Source: Clostridiales bacterium (lineage in GTDB: Bacteria; Bacillota_A; Clostridia; Lachnospirales; Lachnospiraceae). Taken from it: 5,817 nucleotides of DNA. Shown piece after piece: positions 1 through 5,817 of the stretch. Numbering within the stretch: position 1 is the first letter of the stretch; each line of letters begins with the position of its first letter. Under the pieces are notes generated by a model that was not told the origin of the DNA, searched no databases, and worked only from the letters and a program-made list of their open reading frames with translations. Location of the stretch: NCBI GenBank assembly GCA_030154385.1, contig JASKJZ010000177.1, positions 1 to 5,817 on the forward strand. The letters run 5' to 3'. Both the position numbers and the translations under genes were made by a program.

Positions 1-26
1 TTTGTAATATTTTTCATTTTCTTGTT

Positions 27-62
27 AAAAAAACGAGCGGCTCCAAAAGATTGGAAACCGCT
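27..62 (-). terminator. Hairpin with terminator form on the minus strand
   Basis: Read on the minus strand, AGCGG (62-58) pairs with CCGCT (40-36) and CCAA (54-51) pairs with TTGG (46-43), around a UCUU tetraloop and a small internal loop (3 against 2 bases). Two bases after the stem comes a run of seven T (33-27). This is the form of an intrinsic terminator for leftward transcription. On the plus strand no T run follows the stem, so it would not stop rightward transcription in the usual way. No minus-strand gene is visible to its right, so it may block antisense transcription, or it may be a structured part of the leader of the PTS operon. The structure is seen directly; the function is inferred. 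Confidence 0.5.
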
Positions 63-112
63 AAATATAGATATTAATTTTCTTATCTAAATGACATTGA
101 GAAAACAATCAT

Positions 113-538
113 GTGAAATTTGCAAAAAGCGCATCAGACTGGAAAGAAGCGATTCGCATGAGCTGTGAAGTGTTGGAAGCGGATGGAACCGTGGAGGAAA
201 ACTATAAAGAGGACATTATCCGTTGCGTAGAAGAATATGGACCTTATATCGTCATCATGCCTGACATTGCGATGCCACACTCACAAGAGCATGCGAAGGG
301 AGTCAACGGGACTGCTATTTCTTTTATGAAATTAGAGGAGCCTGTAAGTTTTGATCCGTCTGATCCAGAGAAAGAGGCTCGATTATTTTTTACACTGGCA
401 TCTTGTAATTCAGAACAGCATCTAGATAATATGTCAAAGCTGGCAGAGCTGCTTAGTAATGAGGATTTACTCGAAGAGTTAAAGGAAATTACCTGCAAAG
501 GGGATTTATTGAAACTGGAGAAAAAGTATTTTGGTTAA
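113..538 (+). CDS. PTS system EIIA component, ascorbate type (UlaC/SgaA-like)
   Basis: Cytoplasmic phosphocarrier of 141 aa that takes phosphate from HPr and passes it to EIIB. It belongs to the fructose/mannitol-type EIIA fold, ascorbate branch. The motif MPDIAMPH (49-56) carries the predicted phospho-histidine H56, and a second conserved histidine, H103 (EQHLDNM), lies where UlaC has its active-site partner. The N-terminal SDWKEAI (8-14) matches the first helix of the family. The start is GTG at 113: in-frame stops at 92-94 and 98-100 exclude a longer form, and the ATG at 111 is followed at once by TGA. The ribosome binding site is weak. The protein lacks roughly 15 residues that E. coli UlaC has before this helix. 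EIIC follows 18 bp after the stop. Confidence 0.9.
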   Translation: MKFAKSASDWKEAIRMSCEVLEADGTVEENYKEDIIRCVEEYGPYIVIMPDIAMPHSQEHAKGVNGTAISFMKLEEPVSFDPSDPEKEARLFFTLASCNSEQHLDNMSKLAELLSNEDLLEELKEITCKGDLLKLEKKYFG

Positions 539-540
539 GA

Positions 541-548
541 AAAGGGAG
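541..548 (+). promoter_or_regulatory. Ribosome binding site of EIIC
   Basis: AAAGGGAG lies 8 bases before the ATG at 557 and supports that start. Confidence 0.6.
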
Positions 549-556
549 AGCAAACG

Positions 557-2044
557 ATGGATATTTTAATGAAAGTATGGGGATATTTTGCAACAAATAT
601 TTTACAGCAGCCAGCGTTTATGATTGGTTTGATTGTTGCTTTGGGGTATATTTTAATGAAAAAGCCTTGGTATGATATCTTGGCGGGAACCATTAAAGCG
701 ATTGTAGGATATTTGATTTTGGCGGCAGGTTCTGGTGGATTGGTTTCCAATTTCCGACCTGTTTTGGTAGGACTAAAGGATCGGTTTAATTTATCGGCGA
801 TGGTAATTGACCCCTATTTTGGGCAAAATGCGGTGACAGCCGGTGTGGAAGAGGTATTTGGAAAGAGCTTTGGCGATGTTATGATCCTTCTTTTGATTGC
901 ATTTATCGTAAACATTTTATTAGTGCGCTTTAATAAGTTCACAAAGCTTCGTTCCTTGTTTACCACAGGACATGTACAGGTACAGCAGGCTGCAACTGCA
1001 TACTGGTTAATCTTGTTTGCATTGCCAGGATTGTTAACACATAATGTAGCACTTATTGTTGTAATGGCAATTGTACTTGGGGCTTATTGGGCAGTTGGTT
1101 CAAACCTTATCATTAAGCCTTGTCAGGAATTAACGGATGGGGCTGGATTTACCCTTGCGCATCAGCAGATGTTTGGTGTTGCGATTAATTCATGGTTAGC
1201 AGAAAAGTTATTTGGCAAAAAGAAGAATGGTAAAGAAGTAAAGAAAATTGAAGATTTGGAGCTTCCTGGCTTTATGTCAATCTTCAATGAAAATATGGTC
1301 TGTACCTCTATCTTAATGTTGGTATTCTTTGGTGCAATTTTAGCAGTATTAGGAAGAGATTATTTGACCGAACAAGGTTTTTTACAAGAAGGCGCGAGTA
1401 TGGTATTCTATGTAATAAAGACTTGTCTAAACTTTGCAGTATACTTAGCAATTTTACAGCTTGGAGTTCGTACCTTTGTAACAGAGCTTACCGCTTCCTT
1501 CCAGGGAATCTCGGATAAATTACTTCCAGGTTCTGTACCAGGCGTTGACTGTGCGGTATCCTATGGCTTTGGTGCTCCAAATGCGGTTCCACTTGGATTT
1601 CTTGCAGGTTTTGCAGGACAGATTTTAGCAATCATTGCACTGATCGTTTTGAAGAGTCCTGTTCTAGTTATTTGTGGTTTCGTACCTGTATTCTTTGACA
1701 ATGCAACAATTGCGCTCTTTGCAAACGAAAAAGGCGGATTAAAAGCAGCACTTATTTTGCCATTTGTTTCAGGGTTATGTCAGGTATTTGGTTCCGCACT
1801 CATTGCAGGCTGGGTTGGTATGGCAGCCTACGGCGGATACCTTGGAATGTGGGATTGGGCAGTTGTTTGGCCAGTTATGACCGGTATTATGAAATTCTTA
1901 AGCTATGCAGGAGTAGCAGTTGTAGCAATAGCACTGCTTATCATTCCACAGCTTCAATATAGAAGTGACAAGGAAGGATACTTCCTTATCATCAAGGATT
2001 ATGAAGCATATAAGGAATTAAAGGCAAAAAAGGCAGTAAAGTAA
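557..2044 (+). CDS. PTS system EIIC permease, ascorbate type (UlaA/SgaT-like)
   Basis: Integral membrane transporter of 495 aa that moves the substrate across the membrane while EIIB phosphorylates it. It resembles E. coli UlaA along its whole length. Shared blocks are GTIKAIVG (44-51), the AGSGGLVSNFRPV stretch (57-69), TTGH...QQA (136-145), KPCQELTDG (187-195) followed by HQQ (202-204), the IFNENMV...FFGAIL region (242-262), GVRTFVTEL (303-311), PGVDCA (328-333) and APNAV (340-344). Many hydrophobic segments of 18-25 residues run from about 18 to 465. A lysine-rich loop (217-232, KKKNGKEVKK) is probably cytoplasmic. It is about 30 residues longer than E. coli UlaA, partly through a charged C-terminal tail (469-495). 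It lies between EIIA and EIIB, unlike the C-B-A order of the E. coli ula operon. L-ascorbate is the known substrate of the family, but relatives may carry other compounds. Confidence 0.94.
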   Translation: MDILMKVWGYFATNILQQPAFMIGLIVALGYILMKKPWYDILAGTIKAIVGYLILAAGSGGLVSNFRPVLVGLKDRFNLSAMVIDPYFGQNAVTAGVEEVFGKSFGDVMILLLIAFIVNILLVRFNKFTKLRSLFTTGHVQVQQAATAYWLILFALPGLLTHNVALIVVMAIVLGAYWAVGSNLIIKPCQELTDGAGFTLAHQQMFGVAINSWLAEKLFGKKKNGKEVKKIEDLELPGFMSIFNENMVCTSILMLVFFGAILAVLGRDYLTEQGFLQEGASMVFYVIKTCLNFAVYLAILQLGVRTFVTELTASFQGISDKLLPGSVPGVDCAVSYGFGAPNAVPLGFLAGFAGQILAIIALIVLKSPVLVICGFVPVFFDNATIALFANEKGGLKAALILPFVSGLCQVFGSALIAGWVGMAAYGGYLGMWDWAVVWPVMTGIMKFLSYAGVAVVAIALLIIPQLQYRSDKEGYFLIIKDYEAYKELKAKKAVK

Positions 2045-2067
2045 CAAAAAAGTAAGAAGTATGTATT

Positions 2068-2075
2068 GGAGGAAG
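2068..2075 (+). promoter_or_regulatory. Ribosome binding site of EIIB
   Basis: GGAGGAAG lies 7 bases before the ATG at 2083 and gives a strong, well-placed start. Confidence 0.7.
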
Positions 2076-2082
2076 AAGAACC

Positions 2083-2388
2083 ATGGGAAAAGAAAATCTT
2101 ACATTTTTAGTCTGTTGTGCAAATGGTGCAGGAACCAGCTTGATGATGAAGATGACGATGCAAAAGGTACTTGATAAGGTAGGTTTAAAGCCAGCTAAGG
2201 TGCATCATTGTTCGATATCGGAAGGAAAGAGCGCCGCAGCACAGTTCGATGTTGTCTTTTGTTCCCTAAATTTTGCAACAATGTTCAAGGACGCTGAAAA
2301 AAAAGGAACAATGGTGATTGGTTTACGCAATATTATGTCACAAGCAGAGATAGAAGAAAAAATGAAGGAACATGGCATTCTTGATTAA
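2083..2388 (+). CDS. PTS system EIIB component, ascorbate type (UlaB/SgaB-like)
   Basis: Small cytoplasmic phosphocarrier of 101 aa that accepts phosphate from EIIA on a cysteine and gives it to the substrate bound by EIIC. The P-loop-like segment FLVCCANGAGTSLMMKM (8-24) aligns with ILAVCGNGQGSSMIMKM of E. coli UlaB. This makes C12, followed by A-N-G, the predicted phosphocysteine; C11 is a neighbouring extra cysteine. The later segment VIGLRNIMSQAEIEEKM (78-94) matches the conserved VGVRNMLSPADF region of UlaB. Length is normal for a stand-alone EIIB. The gene starts 38 bp after EIIC and closes the permease block; a strong hairpin follows the stop. Confidence 0.93.
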   Translation: MGKENLTFLVCCANGAGTSLMMKMTMQKVLDKVGLKPAKVHHCSISEGKSAAAQFDVVFCSLNFATMFKDAEKKGTMVIGLRNIMSQAEIEEKMKEHGILD

Positions 2389-2411
2389 CTGGTAAGCAAA
2401 AGATTGCCAGA

Positions 2412-2446
2412 CCTTTAGGAGGCGAGAGCATACCGCCTCCTAAAGG
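2412..2446 (+). terminator. Perfect 13-bp hairpin after EIIB (possible terminator or intercistronic stabiliser)
   Basis: The arm 2412-2424 (CCTTTAGGAGGCG) is an exact inverted repeat of 2434-2446, around a 9-base loop (2425-2433). It starts 24 bases after the EIIB stop. A T8 run (2468-2475) and a second T run (2481-2486) lie downstream, but the first is 21 bases past the stem, so this is not a standard intrinsic terminator. It could give partial termination, protect the 3' end of the permease message, or set the ratio between permease and downstream genes. The structure is certain; the role is inferred. Confidence 0.5.
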
Positions 2447-2497
2447 AACCTATCAAATATATGCCTGTTTTTTTTGCGCCTTTTTTGCCAAAATATA

Positions 2498-2525
2498 ATG
2501 ACAAAAATCAAAAAAAGCATATAAT
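2498..2525 (+). promoter_or_regulatory. Predicted sigma-70-type promoter of the regulator and downstream genes
   Basis: A -35 box ATGACA (2498-2503, five of six to TTGACA) and a perfect -10 box TATAAT (2520-2525) are 16 bp apart. Transcription would begin near 2531-2533, leaving a leader of about 47 bases with a strong ribosome binding site. Between the boxes are two tandem CAAAAA runs starting at 2502 and 2509, 7 bp apart, which could be part of an operator. A second TATAAT at 2494-2499 has no good -35 partner. The boxes are seen; their activity is inferred. Confidence 0.6.
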
Positions 2526-2564
2526 GGAATCATAAGAAAACAAATCATTCATATAGGCAATAGT

Positions 2565-2571
2565 TAGGAGG
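2565..2571 (+). promoter_or_regulatory. Ribosome binding site that fixes the GTG start of the regulator
   Basis: TAGGAGG lies 7 bases before the GTG at 2579. This supports GTG as the true start although the codon is not ATG. Confidence 0.75.
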
Positions 2572-2578
2572 CTATTAC

Positions 2579-3358
2579 GTGAAAAGAGAACGAGCGTATG
2601 TCGAGGGCCGCAGAAGGCAGATTATGGAATTGTTACAGAAAAATCCACAGATTCGAGTGGATGAAATCGCGGAGTGTTTGGAGGTATCCGTGGTTACCGT
2701 GCGTCGTGATCTGCAATGGCTCGAAGATGAAAAACAGGTAACACGCTTTTATGGCGGTGCCAGAGTAGCACCTGGGCAGATGAAAGCCGTTGATGAAGTA
2801 GCACTATATCGAAATCTGATTGCAAAATATGCAGCGTCGCTTGTACAAAATGGAGATACCATGTTTATCAATACCAGCAGCAATGCCCTTTCTATGATTC
2901 GTTACATGGAGCAAGCAAACGTGACGGTCATTACCAATAATGGAAAAGCCATTAACTATGAAAAAGGGAATGGTGTCAGTATCATACTGACAGGAGGTGA
3001 GCTTCGTTTTCCAAAAGAAGCGATGGTTGGTGATTTTGCAGTACGCAATTTGCAGAATATTTTTGCAAAAAAGGCATTTATGGGATGCTCGGGTATTTCG
3101 GCAAAGGTTGGAATGACAACGGAGATTGCGAATGAAGTGAATGTCAACCAATTGATGATTGAACACGCGACACAGGAGGTCTATATTTTAGCCGATCATA
3201 CGAAGATTGGACGAAGCAGCAGCTTTACAAGCTGTGGAATTGATATGGTGAAGCACTTGATCACCGATGAGAAGGCGCCCGAGGAAGAATTAGAACGGAT
3301 GCGGGAGCTTGGAGTTCGTATTCATCAGGTGCATAAAGCAGATATGATAGGACGATAG
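2579..3358 (+). CDS. DeoR-family transcriptional regulator (UlaR-like, probable local repressor)
   Basis: Cytoplasmic DNA-binding protein of 259 aa, the normal length for the family. The N-terminal winged helix-turn-helix spans about 10-65: RRRQIMELLQ (11-20), then VDEIAECLEVSVVTVRRDL (27-45) with the family signature VTVRRDL in the recognition helix, then the wing ending RFYGGA (56-61). The C-terminal sugar-phosphate sensor domain covers about 75-240, with FINTSSNA (96-103), the GG turn at 139-140, VGD (150-152), GCSGIS (169-174), LADHTKIG (204-211) and LITD (227-230). Members bind phosphorylated sugars; UlaR of E. coli responds to L-ascorbate-6-phosphate. The position between the permease and the catabolic/PTS genes suggests that it controls this locus and possibly itself. 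The effector is not known from the sequence. Confidence 0.9.
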   Translation: MKRERAYVEGRRRQIMELLQKNPQIRVDEIAECLEVSVVTVRRDLQWLEDEKQVTRFYGGARVAPGQMKAVDEVALYRNLIAKYAASLVQNGDTMFINTSSNALSMIRYMEQANVTVITNNGKAINYEKGNGVSIILTGGELRFPKEAMVGDFAVRNLQNIFAKKAFMGCSGISAKVGMTTEIANEVNVNQLMIEHATQEVYILADHTKIGRSSSFTSCGIDMVKHLITDEKAPEEELERMRELGVRIHQVHKADMIGR

Positions 3359-3440
3359 TTTATAAGAATGCAGTGTTTTTTCTTCCATTTTGAATCGTAG
3401 CAAGGACGGACAAATGGTTCAATCAATCGGGAGGTGAAAC
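3359..3440 (+). other. Intergenic gap between regulator and epimerase
   Basis: These 82 bases contain no gene. An imperfect 7-bp stem pairs TTGAATC (3390-3396) with GGTTCAA (3416-3422), with one G-U pair and a 19-base loop. It lies just before the ribosome binding site GGGAGGTG (3429-3436) of the epimerase. A T6 run (3376-3381) has no stem before it, so no terminator is seen, and read-through from the regulator is likely. Confidence 0.4.
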
Positions 3441-4304
3441 ATGAAAGCATATTCACTCGGACTTTATGAAAAGTCGATTCCTTCGACTTTGTCATGGCGA
3501 GAAAAGTTAGAAACAGCGAAGCAGTCAGGCTTTGATTTTTTGGAGATTAGTATTGATGAATCAGAGGAAAAGCTGGCTCGTCTTGACATGACACAAGAGG
3601 AGCGAGCAGGAATTATCAGTATTATGAATGGAATTGGAATGCCAATTCGCACGATGTGCCTAAGTGGTCACAGGAAATATCCACTTGGAAGCAAGGATCT
3701 TGCCATCTCTGGCAAGGGCATGGAAATTATGGAGAAAGCAATTGCACTTGCGGAGGATTTTGGGATACGAATAATCCAACTTGCTGGATATGATGTTTAT
3801 TATGAGGATTCCAATCAAGAGACGAAGGAGCGCTTTTTACAAAATTTAATTAAGGCGACGCAAATGGCAGCCAGAGCAGGTGTTGTTCTAGGGTTTGAAA
3901 CGATGGAAACAGAATTTATGAATACGGTTGAAAAGGCGATGAACTATGTAAATATTGTAAATTCTTCTTACCTTAGTGTGTATCCGGATATCGGAAATAT
4001 CACCAATGCTGCAAAGACCTATGGAATTGATGTCCTAAAGGACATGGAGACTGGAAATGGTCATTTGGTTGCGATGCACTTAAAAGAAACCGTTCCAGGC
4101 AAGTTTCGTGAGATTCCGTTTGGTATGGGTCACGTTGATTTTGAGGCTGCGATTCATAAGGCATGGGAGCTTGGGGTACGCAAATTTGTAACAGAATTTT
4201 GGTATACGGGAAATGAAGGCTGGCGGGAAGATTTATTATTTGCCAACCGCATGATGACGGATATATTGAACCGACAGAGCATGGAGAGGCAGGAAGTATC
4301 ATGA
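3441..4304 (+). CDS. L-ribulose-5-phosphate 3-epimerase, UlaE/SgaU-like
   Basis: Cytoplasmic TIM-barrel enzyme of 287 aa, predicted to interconvert L-xylulose-5-phosphate and L-ribulose-5-phosphate, as UlaE does in anaerobic ascorbate breakdown. It aligns with E. coli UlaE from the first residues: LGLYEKSIP (6-14), GFDFLEISIDE (30-40), MCLSGHRKYPLGS (72-84), IQLAGYDVYY (112-121), YPDIGN (181-186), PFGMGHVDFE (226-235). The four metal ligands known in UlaE correspond to E153, D183, H213 and E252, and all are present, so the enzyme should be active. Start ATG has RBS GGGAGGTG. Its last bases overlap the next gene by 4 (ATGA), which suggests coupled translation. A related xylose-isomerase-like sugar phosphate isomerase activity is the main alternative. 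Confidence 0.9.
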   Translation: MKAYSLGLYEKSIPSTLSWREKLETAKQSGFDFLEISIDESEEKLARLDMTQEERAGIISIMNGIGMPIRTMCLSGHRKYPLGSKDLAISGKGMEIMEKAIALAEDFGIRIIQLAGYDVYYEDSNQETKERFLQNLIKATQMAARAGVVLGFETMETEFMNTVEKAMNYVNIVNSSYLSVYPDIGNITNAAKTYGIDVLKDMETGNGHLVAMHLKETVPGKFREIPFGMGHVDFEAAIHKAWELGVRKFVTEFWYTGNEGWREDLLFANRMMTDILNRQSMERQEVS

Positions 4305-5383
4305 GGATAGAGAAAAAAGTCATTGCAAATTTAACAAAATGTTATTCCATTGCACCACTTACGCTACATGGAGAAGAGCATTTTCTTGTAGCAGCTGAAA
4401 AGACAGACGAATGCCTGTTGTTTGATTTGGATGGGAATCAAACGGATGTTATCTGGCATGAGCCAGGTGGGACGATGAGCATGGTGCAGGTGCCAGGTAG
4501 TGACGGTCAGTTTTTGGCGACGCAGAAATTTTATTCGCCAAACGATTCTATGGAGGCAAAAATCGTGATTGTGACGCCGCAAACCGATGGAAGCTGGGAG
4601 ATACGTACCTTAGTGGAGCTTCCCTTTGTACATCGTTTTGATGTGGTCACGTGTGAAGGAATCCATTATCTAATCGCTTGCACCATAAAATCAGGTCATG
4701 CATATAAGGAGGACTGGACGAGTCCAGGCAAAATTTATGTGGCCAAATTGCCAGAGGATTTGGGCGAGTACTCGAAGGAGCATCAGCTCGAACTCTCTGT
4801 TTTAAAAGAAGGGCTGACGCGTAATCACGGTTATTATAAGATGGAGATAAATGGGATTCCAACTTGTATCATTTCTGCAGAAAATGGTGTGTTTCAATTG
4901 ACGCCTCCGCACAAGGAGCAGACGGATTGGAATATAAAGGAGCTACTAAATCAGCCAGCCAGCGATGCGGTTTTGGTTGATTTTGATCAAGATGGTGAAT
5001 TGGAGCTTGGAGTCATCGCGCCATTCCATGGTGGTAACATTATGATTTTTAAAGAAACACAAGGCATATATAAAAAGGTATACGAGTACGAAAAGGAGGC
5101 ATTGTTCAGTCATGCGATTTATGGTGGAATGCTTTGTGGAACTCCTTCACTTGTGATTGGACACAGGCAAGGAGAACGCAACCTCATGGTGTTTACCTAT
5201 GACAAGGAAAAAGCAGATTATACCGTAACGATAATTGACAGGGACTGCGGTCCAGCCAATGTCTACCATTTTGTAACGGCTGGAGTAGAGAAAATGGTGG
5301 CAACCAATCGTGAAATTGATGAAGTGGCATTGTATGAATGGAAGGAGGAGAAGGATGAAAGAGTTTCGTTATGTCATAAATGA
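4301..5383 (+). CDS. Unrecognised cytoplasmic protein, probable seven-bladed beta-propeller (FG-GAP/VCBS-like)
   Basis: The protein has 360 aa, with no signal peptide and no membrane segment. I do not recognise a named family with certainty. Its strands recur about every 48 residues, each unit beginning with a short hydrophobic strand and followed by a second strand and a turn: HFLVAAE (27-33), QFLATQK (70-76), HYLIACT (122-128), PTCIISAE (187-194), LELGVIAP (234-241), PSLVIGHR (282-289) and KMVATNRE (331-338). The DFDQDGELE stretch (227-235) resembles the calcium-binding loop of FG-GAP/VCBS repeats. Polar residues that could form a central metal or active site are H53, H111-R112, H133, H176, H243 and H271. 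It is coupled to the epimerase by a 4-base overlap and to HPr by a 29-base overlap, so it should act in the same route. Possible roles are a propeller lactonase, a sugar dehydratase/isomerase like fungal aldos-2-ulose dehydratase, or a sensor. None is proven. Confidence 0.75.
   Translation: MRIEKKVIANLTKCYSIAPLTLHGEEHFLVAAEKTDECLLFDLDGNQTDVIWHEPGGTMSMVQVPGSDGQFLATQKFYSPNDSMEAKIVIVTPQTDGSWEIRTLVELPFVHRFDVVTCEGIHYLIACTIKSGHAYKEDWTSPGKIYVAKLPEDLGEYSKEHQLELSVLKEGLTRNHGYYKMEINGIPTCIISAENGVFQLTPPHKEQTDWNIKELLNQPASDAVLVDFDQDGELELGVIAPFHGGNIMIFKETQGIYKKVYEYEKEALFSHAIYGGMLCGTPSLVIGHRQGERNLMVFTYDKEKADYTVTIIDRDCGPANVYHFVTAGVEKMVATNREIDEVALYEWKEEKDERVSLCHK
5342..5348 (+). promoter_or_regulatory. Ribosome binding site that fixes the HPr start inside the upstream gene
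   Basis: AAGGAGG lies 6 bases before the ATG at 5355, within the end of the propeller gene. It shows that HPr starts at 5355 and not at the in-frame ATG at 5310, which has no such site and would add 15 residues foreign to the family. Confidence 0.8.
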
Positions 5384-5612
5384 CCCACTAGGACTACATG
5401 CAAGGCCGGCAGGGCTTCTTGCAAAGGAGGCAAAAAAATACCAAAGTAAAATAACGTTAACAAAGGATGATAAGTCTGCCACAGCTACCCAGTTATTAGC
5501 CATTATGGGAATGGCAGCTAAAAAGGGTGCGACCGTTTTGGTGTCGATTGAGGGCCAAGATGAAGAGGCTGCCTATTTAGCTATTCATAAATTCTTTCAG
5601 GAGAATCTATAG
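5355..5612 (+). CDS. HPr-family phosphocarrier protein with Ser46 replaced by Gln
   Basis: Cytoplasmic PTS carrier of 85 aa, the usual HPr length. It takes phosphate from enzyme I on a histidine and passes it to EIIA proteins. The active-site motif GLHARPAG (13-20) holds H15 and R17. A gapless alignment to B. subtilis and E. coli HPr from H15 through G58 puts Q46 (in ATQLLAIMG, 44-52) at the place of the regulatory serine 46, with T45 for the usual lysine. It should therefore work in phosphotransfer but not be phosphorylated by HPr kinase at that site, nor act as a normal P-Ser-HPr co-repressor with CcpA. It overlaps the propeller gene by 29 bases, with enzyme I 29 bases downstream, as in ptsHI. 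It is probably a dedicated paralogue of the housekeeping HPr, but the genome would have to show that. Confidence 0.92.
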   Translation: MKEFRYVINDPLGLHARPAGLLAKEAKKYQSKITLTKDDKSATATQLLAIMGMAAKKGATVLVSIEGQDEEAAYLAIHKFFQENL

Positions 5613-5631
5613 GAAACAGGCGTTTTAAGAG

Positions 5632-5638
5632 AAAGGAA
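5632..5638 (+). promoter_or_regulatory. Ribosome binding site of the enzyme I gene
   Basis: AAAGGAA lies 3-4 bases before the ATG at 5642. It is moderate in strength and closer than usual. Confidence 0.4.
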
Positions 5639-5641
5639 ACG

Positions 5642-5817
5642 ATGGAACAGTATAGCGGAAAATCAATTTATCAAAAAATTGTGACAGGGCCTATTTTTTA
5701 TTATGAAAAAAGGGAAGCAGTTGTGAAACGAAAGCACATTGAGGATGTTGAGGCGGAAAAGCAACGTTTTCTAGCAGCGAAAGTGGAAGCAATCCGTCAG
5801 CTCTCTGGTTTGTATGC
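5642..5817 (+). CDS. PTS enzyme I (phosphoenolpyruvate-protein phosphotransferase), N-terminal fragment
   Basis: The reading frame is open from ATG to the right edge (58 codons and two bases), so the gene is cut by the window. Enzyme I takes phosphate from PEP and gives it to HPr. The start shows the usual pattern of the N-terminal domain: YSGKSIYQKIVTGPIFYY (4-21) matches the K/SxxxGxAxGxxxxx opening strand, followed by VKRKHIEDVEAEKQRF (28-43), the first long helix of the family (typically V...EDVEAEIARF). The phospho-histidine and PEP-binding domain lie outside the window. Its position just after HPr supports the call. It is too short here to judge whether the enzyme is complete. Confidence 0.85.
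   Translation, partial: MEQYSGKSIYQKIVTGPIFYYEKREAVVKRKHIEDVEAEKQRFLAAKVEAIRQLSGLY

Follow-up and report, generated by a model that had tools for sequence, protein, structure and literature searches.

A stretch of 5,817 nucleotides from a Lachnospiraceae genome (Clostridiales bacterium, assembly GCA_030154385.1, contig JASKJZ010000177.1, positions 1 to 5,817; in the following called the window) carries, according to the profile matches of its genes, part of an ascorbate-type phosphotransferase system (PTS) operon. Within this operon, an open reading frame (ORF) with an ATG start (4301..5383, plus strand) encodes a beta-propeller protein of 360 amino acids. We propose that this protein is probably a cytosolic metalloenzyme that replaces UlaD in the fermentation of L-ascorbate and decarboxylates 3-keto-L-gulonate-6-phosphate. 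This reading is based on the ORF and its homologues, the predicted fold, the conservation of one face of the propeller, the position of the gene in the operon and its presence where UlaD is absent; metal, substrate and reaction are inferred, the decarboxylation from the operon position and from a distribution that is complementary to that of UlaD.

The canonical ascorbate route requires UlaD between UlaG and UlaE, as laid out in a survey of ula regulons (PMC3219644), and in a canonical operon (locus L154 of genome G254) the gene order is UlaG-IIA-UlaA-IIB-UlaD-UlaE-AraD. The commonest order in Clostridiaceae is UlaG-IIA-UlaA-IIB-propeller-AraD-UlaE, complete save for UlaD, and many of these loci continue with transketolase halves and a transaldolase-like gene. 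IIB and AraD are the nearest recognised same-strand neighbours of 20 of the 28 Clostridiaceae propellers, and none of the 31 Clostridiaceae loci has a recognisable UlaD. One contig of 7 kb (L247) contains exactly the seven genes from UlaG to UlaE, including the propeller, and no further called ORF. As one step of the pathway is missing and one gene of the same operon is without assignment, the propeller probably carries out the UlaD step. The absence of UlaD from these loci contrasts with the same survey, which describes a ulaABCDEF unit for every case it examined, Clostridium botulinum and Catonella morbi being named there (PMC3219644); for Catonella morbi it also notes that ulaF is followed by a duplicated gene that is uncharacterized.

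The complementary distribution of propeller and UlaD extends beyond single operons. With a cut-off of 250 bits for the UlaD profile (NF009832), and with an Escherichia coli control genome in which UlaG and UlaD both exceeded their cut-offs, 102 genomes with UlaG divide into 50 with the propeller and no UlaD over the cut-off, 48 with UlaD and no propeller, one with both and three with neither. For 27 of these 102 (24 of the 27 propeller-containing Clostridiaceae and three genomes without propeller), UlaD was sought only in the neighbourhood of UlaG; the Clostridiaceae with a genome-wide UlaD search are G004, G618 and G631. If only the first three samples are taken, with 72 distinct UlaG genomes and a genome-wide search for UlaD, the numbers are 23 with the propeller only, 48 with UlaD only, one with both and none with neither (Fisher p = 6e-18, a value that is too small owing to shared lineage).

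Among 200 genomes of the Lachnospiraceae, the family of Lachnotalea glycerini, 23 have the propeller and 18 have UlaG over the cut-off, all 18 being among the 23. UlaD over the cut-off is found in none of the 200; twelve have weaker matches, and 13 of the 18 UlaG genomes have no match to the UlaD model even at E <= 1e-5. A sample of 398 genomes across the phylum has eight with the propeller (only a partial one in G282) and eight with UlaG over the cut-off, six of them in common. Two UlaG genomes of this sample, G254 and G263, lack the propeller; both exceed the UlaD cut-off, as does no other of 66 genomes searched, and the remaining 64 all have the propeller (again partial in G282). In the order to which G254 belongs, 48 of 198 genomes have UlaG; UlaD is present in 48 of 48 and the propeller in one of 48 (49 genomes were searched, as G263 was included). 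The one exception, G661, carries UlaD in an ordinary ula operon and the propeller elsewhere in the genome. Finally, 30 of 166 genomes of the Clostridiaceae, the family of Clostridium algoriphilum, have UlaG, and 27 of these have the propeller. The three without it include G878 (L232), with a UlaG that lacks other ula genes nearby; in G947 (L196), likewise with UlaG and no propeller, the contig stops after UlaA, and in G984 (L225) the UlaG match is incomplete (positions 155-355 of 355).

The neighbours of the propeller gene were counted by profile searches of all ORFs in 103 loci. Loci left out were L111 (a duplicate of L080), L081-L085, L089, L090 and L092-L096 (places already covered by other loci) and L091 (G282, a partial propeller only); the counts for UlaG include weak relatives, such as the one of L098 (221 bits, below the cut-off). 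UlaE was recognised in 84 of the 103 loci, UlaG or a UlaG-like protein in 79, a DeoR-type regulator in 63, UlaA in 58, AraD in 55, an FGGY kinase in 28 and UlaD in none. In 72 of the 103, UlaE is the next gene upstream, in the same orientation, and the commonest spacing, found in 12 of these 72, is the four-base overlap that the window also has. Of the 75 well-flanked loci (5 kb or more to either side), 66 have UlaG or a UlaG-like protein, 63 UlaE, 47 UlaA and 24 an FGGY sugar kinase; UlaA and FGGY kinase occur together in just one, and five have neither. Fifteen of the 23 loci with FGGY kinase and no UlaA have a recognised ABC permease. The steadiest partners of the propeller are thus enzymes of the ascorbate pathway and the importer varies: the propeller is tied to ascorbate catabolism and not to the PTS as such. 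A link to the PTS is not constant, with UlaA recognised in 47 of the 75 well-flanked loci.

Some relatives lie in neighbourhoods without UlaG. The neighbours of a second copy in Lachnotalea glycerini (L114) are UlaE, a D-2-hydroxyacid dehydrogenase, a kinase resembling xylulokinase and an ABC transporter of the ribose type, L102 also has a D-2-hydroxyacid dehydrogenase, L097 has a TctA-type carboxylate transporter together with KduD-like and D-2-hydroxyacid dehydrogenases, and L116 has a kinase, AraD and UlaE. By analogy with the yia pathway of Escherichia coli, these contexts would suit sugar-acid substrates. The decarboxylase of this yiaK-S/sgb pathway is SgbH, a paralogue of UlaD; with its kinase, hydroxyacid dehydrogenase, UlaE and propeller, L114 resembles the diketogulonate pathway but has the propeller in the place expected for SgbH. 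UlaE was not recognised in L097, L098, L099 (which adjoins other oxidoreductases) and L102, so that the distant family members may do something else. In six loci (L026, L028, L032, L038, L043 and L060; three Lacrimispora, one Hungatella and two metagenome-assembled genomes of Paenibacillaceae) a methyl-accepting chemotaxis protein is encoded directly 3' of the propeller, perhaps for chemotaxis to ascorbate. In a second PTS operon of genome G612 (L158), UlaA is accompanied by transketolase halves and by genes resembling UlaD and AraD, and neither UlaG nor UlaE is present; this operon is possibly a separate sugar-acid route.

The predicted structure of the window protein is a seven-bladed all-beta propeller with 28 strands (pLDDT 94.4) that is closed by the N-terminal strand and fills the entire chain of 360 amino acids. 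The inner strands start at residues 14, 61, 110, 177, 222, 270 and 318 (the assignment to blades is ours), with spacings of 47, 49, 67, 45, 48 and 48 residues. The initial annotation, which was made from the sequence, had described a soluble intracellular propeller of about seven units of roughly 48 residues, and the model agrees with this description, as does the lack of a hydrophobic N-terminal stretch, judged by eye and not by a signal-peptide program. At E <= 1e-3 the family comprises at least 1854 proteins, which rules out a chance ORF; of the 120 homologues listed, those that bear a source name are called 'hypothetical' or, once, 'VCBS repeat-containing'. No Pfam model reaches its cut-off (the sole match is FG-GAP with 12.4 bits versus 22.1, E 0.15), the Pfam model for OMP decarboxylases does not match, and there is no NCBIfam match up to E 0.1, the UlaD profile NF009832 included. 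UlaD is a TIM barrel of the orotidine-5'-phosphate-decarboxylase family. The propeller would therefore resemble UlaD in the proposed reaction, in its place in the ula pathway (the gap between IIB and UlaE, filled by UlaD in L154) and in its co-occurrence with UlaG, but differs from it in its all-beta fold and by the absence of a match to the UlaD model.

In Foldseek searches, the nearest solved fold is the seven-bladed propeller domain of aldos-2-ulose dehydratase (AUDH; PDB 4a7k, 4a7y and 4a7z; TMq 0.76-0.77), and the corresponding hint in the initial annotation is well supported. AUDH carries additional cupin and lectin domains and has about 900 residues (879-881 in the PDB chains), while the window protein is the propeller alone. 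Identity between the two in the structural alignment is 10-14%, and the relationship is not detectable by sequence: neither phmmer nor a pair of profile searches against PDB sequences gave a useful match, and AUDH is not listed in the profile searches up to E 10. The AUDH propeller has a catalytic metal site, with zinc as the probable Lewis acid on the keto sugar; the window propeller has four invariant histidines on one face. Among the 50 matches listed from a library of viral structures are propeller-like folds with a TMq of up to 0.59. No relative was found in plasmid records, and an unannotated 9.7-kb record of a phage collection (MT836566.1:1927-2973) encodes a propeller with 54.8% identity; we guess that this record probably stems from a bacterium and not from a phage. 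In L168 (G474) and L159 (G282) the propeller ORFs are partial, with about 125-130 amino acids, and are apparently remnants or broken copies.

Conservation was examined in an alignment of the window protein with 72 homologues of 28-65% identity (73 sequences) and in 278 full-length sequences of 281 aligned, 270 of which remained after a 98% limit. Twenty residues never vary across the 73, and the following are at least 99% conserved in the 278: Y15, E33, G57, M59, F77, H111, R112, D138, W139, G143, N175, H176, G177, G196, D222, F242, H243, G244, F269, H271, R289 and Y345. With near-duplicates removed, H111, R112, D138, W139, H176 and H243 are present in 270 of 270 sequences and H271 and R289 in 269. 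The 28 Clostridiaceae members, with 33-62% identity to the window protein, all have the four histidines, E33, R112, D138, W139 and R289; at the position of D222, 18 of them have D and ten have E. On the plus strand of the window, these residues are encoded at 4631..4636 (H111-R112, start of the inner strand of blade 3), 4712..4717 (D138-W139, B-C loop of blade 3), 4826..4828 (H176, D-A loop of blade 4), 5027..5029 (H243, B-C loop of blade 5), 5111..5113 (H271, start of the inner strand of blade 6) and 5165..5167 (R289, B-C loop of blade 6), the positions of D138-W139 and R289 being computed from the ORF start. Of 35 near-invariant residues, 25 map to D-A or B-C connections or edges at one face, five to the opposite face and five to strand cores (Fisher p = 0.0006 for one face versus the other, with top and bottom assigned by us from the strand list).

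As the four histidines, R112, D138, W139, E33 and R289 are kept and lie nearly all at one face, this set of residues is, judged from alignment and model, an enzyme pocket, and its four invariant histidines suggest a bound metal. The undescribed enzyme considered in the initial annotation is thus well supported by predicted fold, likeness to AUDH and conserved residues. Of the six histidines it had singled out, H111, H176, H243 and H271 are invariant (73 of 73); H53 is not conserved and H133 is present in just 63 of the 73 and in five of the 28 Clostridiaceae members, and we reject both as catalytic residues. The Ca-type loop it had noticed is present as a single DxDxDG (D227-x-D229-x-D231-G232, residues 227-232; 4979..4996, plus strand) in the A-B loop of blade 5, and is dispensable: D229 is a gap in 70 of the 89 sequences of the set around L098. 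This subfamily (most of P0121-P0209) has the same pocket, has mostly lost the Ca loop and has several substitutions (H133 to K in 85 of 89, D82 to Q in 70 and N320 to Q in 73); its neighbours at L098 are the UlaG-like protein below the cut-off, a sugar ABC transporter and an amidohydrolase, and it perhaps acts on another substrate. A DxDxDG in the A-B loop is also common to the VCBS/FG-GAP propellers (PF13517, PF01839; integrins and PVL lectins), as described for the VCBS superfamily (PMC8023676). The window protein differs from these by having one such loop on one blade, no visible export signal, an enzyme-like pocket and an FG-GAP score below the cut-off. We reject the reading as a secreted FG-GAP adhesin.

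A route consistent with these data would start with the import of ascorbate by a UlaA-type PTS, yielding ascorbate-6-phosphate, or in other loci perhaps by an ABC transporter combined with an FGGY kinase. UlaG would open the lactone and the propeller would take CO2 off the resulting beta-keto acid, 3-keto-L-gulonate-6-phosphate, to give L-xylulose-5-phosphate, which UlaE would epimerise and, with AraD (UlaF), convert to D-xylulose-5-phosphate. In the pocket, a divalent metal on H111, H176, H243 and H271 may polarise the C3 keto group, departure of CO2 would leave a metal-stabilised enediolate, an acid residue of the pocket would protonate C2, and R112 and/or R289 may hold the carboxylate or the phosphate. 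Ascorbate-6-phosphate, which the initial annotation had proposed for activity tests, is unlikely as substrate and 3-keto-L-gulonate-6-phosphate fits better, because a lactonase is already present in 66 of the 75 well-flanked loci. With somewhat less confidence, we favour a wider family of beta-propeller decarboxylases: AUDH-type propellers that would hold a metal in a pocket of four histidines, act on beta-keto sugar acids, replace UlaD/SgbH for ascorbate across Clostridia and, in subfamilies, serve diketogulonate-like and other sugar acids.

Several observations weigh against UlaD replacement. The case is built on sequence, predicted structure and genome context, the distribution is partly confounded by lineage, and the UlaD search near UlaG was in some genomes shortened by contig ends (L196 3.3 kb, L247 7.0 kb, L231 8.0 kb). 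G472 has both the propeller and the strongest of the weak UlaD matches (247.7 bits, 2.3 under the cut-off), and this weakens a strict exclusion; the match is on another contig, beside a UlaE-like gene, with no UlaG or propeller there. The UlaD-like protein of G612 (221 bits) is encoded in a different operon. Such weaker matches, which might be active, are found in five of the 18 Lachnospiraceae UlaG genomes (G472 included) and in seven of the 64 genomes with a propeller, among which that of G612 scores best. Five of the 23 propeller genomes of the 200-genome sample have no UlaG over the cut-off, and among the well-flanked loci 12 of 75 lack a recognised UlaE and nine lack UlaG, so part of the family may carry out other reactions. 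Furthermore, a beta-keto acid may decarboxylate unaided.

An alternative is that the propeller catalyses some other step of this pathway than the decarboxylation, for example as an AUDH-like dehydratase, a tautomerase or an epimerase, with CO2 lost spontaneously or by the product of an unlinked gene. The closest solved fold, that of a dehydratase/isomerase, would suit this, as would the weak UlaD matches and the loci without UlaE; but CO2 loss must occur, because UlaE and AraD need a pentose phosphate, operons like L247 contain every other step and leave no other gene to assign, and 13 of the 18 UlaG genomes lack even a weak UlaD match. We regard this alternative as rather unlikely. A propeller lactonase of the 6-phosphogluconolactonase/SMP30 kind, acting on ascorbate-6-phosphate, would agree with the fold and with a pathway that includes a lactone, and the lactonases 8djf and 4qrj are among the lower Foldseek matches; their TMq of 0.51-0.53 is below that of AUDH and the step is already filled by UlaG or its relatives, and we consider such an activity most improbable. 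A non-catalytic subunit that senses sugar or phosphate for the PTS or the DeoR regulator, the former suggested in the initial annotation, is hardly more credible. Overlaps with the UlaE and HPr genes in the window and the frequent DeoR-type regulator can be cited in its favour, but UlaA is present in just one of the 24 well-flanked loci with FGGY kinase, several polar pocket residues are rigidly conserved, and the propeller alternates with an enzyme, UlaD. The decarboxylase remains our preferred reading.

The other genes of the window, all on the plus strand, encode a PTS EIIA (113..538, PF00359), a UlaA-type ascorbate PTS EIIC (557..2044, NCBIfam NF006919, 397.6 bits versus a cut-off of 380), a PTS EIIB (2083..2388, PF02302), a DeoR-family regulator (2579..3358, profile match), a UlaE-type L-ribulose/L-xylulose-5-phosphate 3-epimerase (3441..4304, TIGR00542, 299.2 bits versus 272.15), the phosphocarrier HPr (5355..5612, PF00381) and the start of EI (phosphoenolpyruvate-protein phosphotransferase; 5642..5817), which is ended by the window edge and matches weakly (Pfam 7.9e-5, below the gathering score; NCBIfam 0.014). 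As read in the initial annotation, the propeller ORF overlaps both neighbours, the epimerase ORF by four bases (ATGA) and the HPr frame by 29 bases, assuming that HPr starts with the ATG at 5355. The UlaG profile has no match in the first 180 bases of the window, which take in the three forward frames 5' of EIIA (1-112); in relatives UlaG is often just 5' of EIIA, and that of the window may lie beyond its edge. An HPr and an EI start of its own (5355-5817) are features the operon shares with 24 (HPr) and 17 (EI) of the 103 propeller loci. The window HPr has LGLHARPAG and, in our reading, an alanine preceding I-M-G, which we take to be the position of the usual regulatory serine; from its sequence, this HPr may escape HPr kinase.

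Among the papers listed in searches of open-access literature, we found none that describes a propeller acting in the breakdown of ascorbate. If the proposed function is true, the fermentation of vitamin C in many anaerobic, largely gut-derived Clostridia uses an enzyme that is named by neither Pfam nor NCBIfam, and for this reason pathway software that scores UlaD would call such genomes incomplete. It would also place the chemistry of UlaD-type decarboxylases on a propeller fold, suggest AUDH-type propellers as a general scaffold for keto sugars and provide the family, with its at least 1854 members, with an assayable function.
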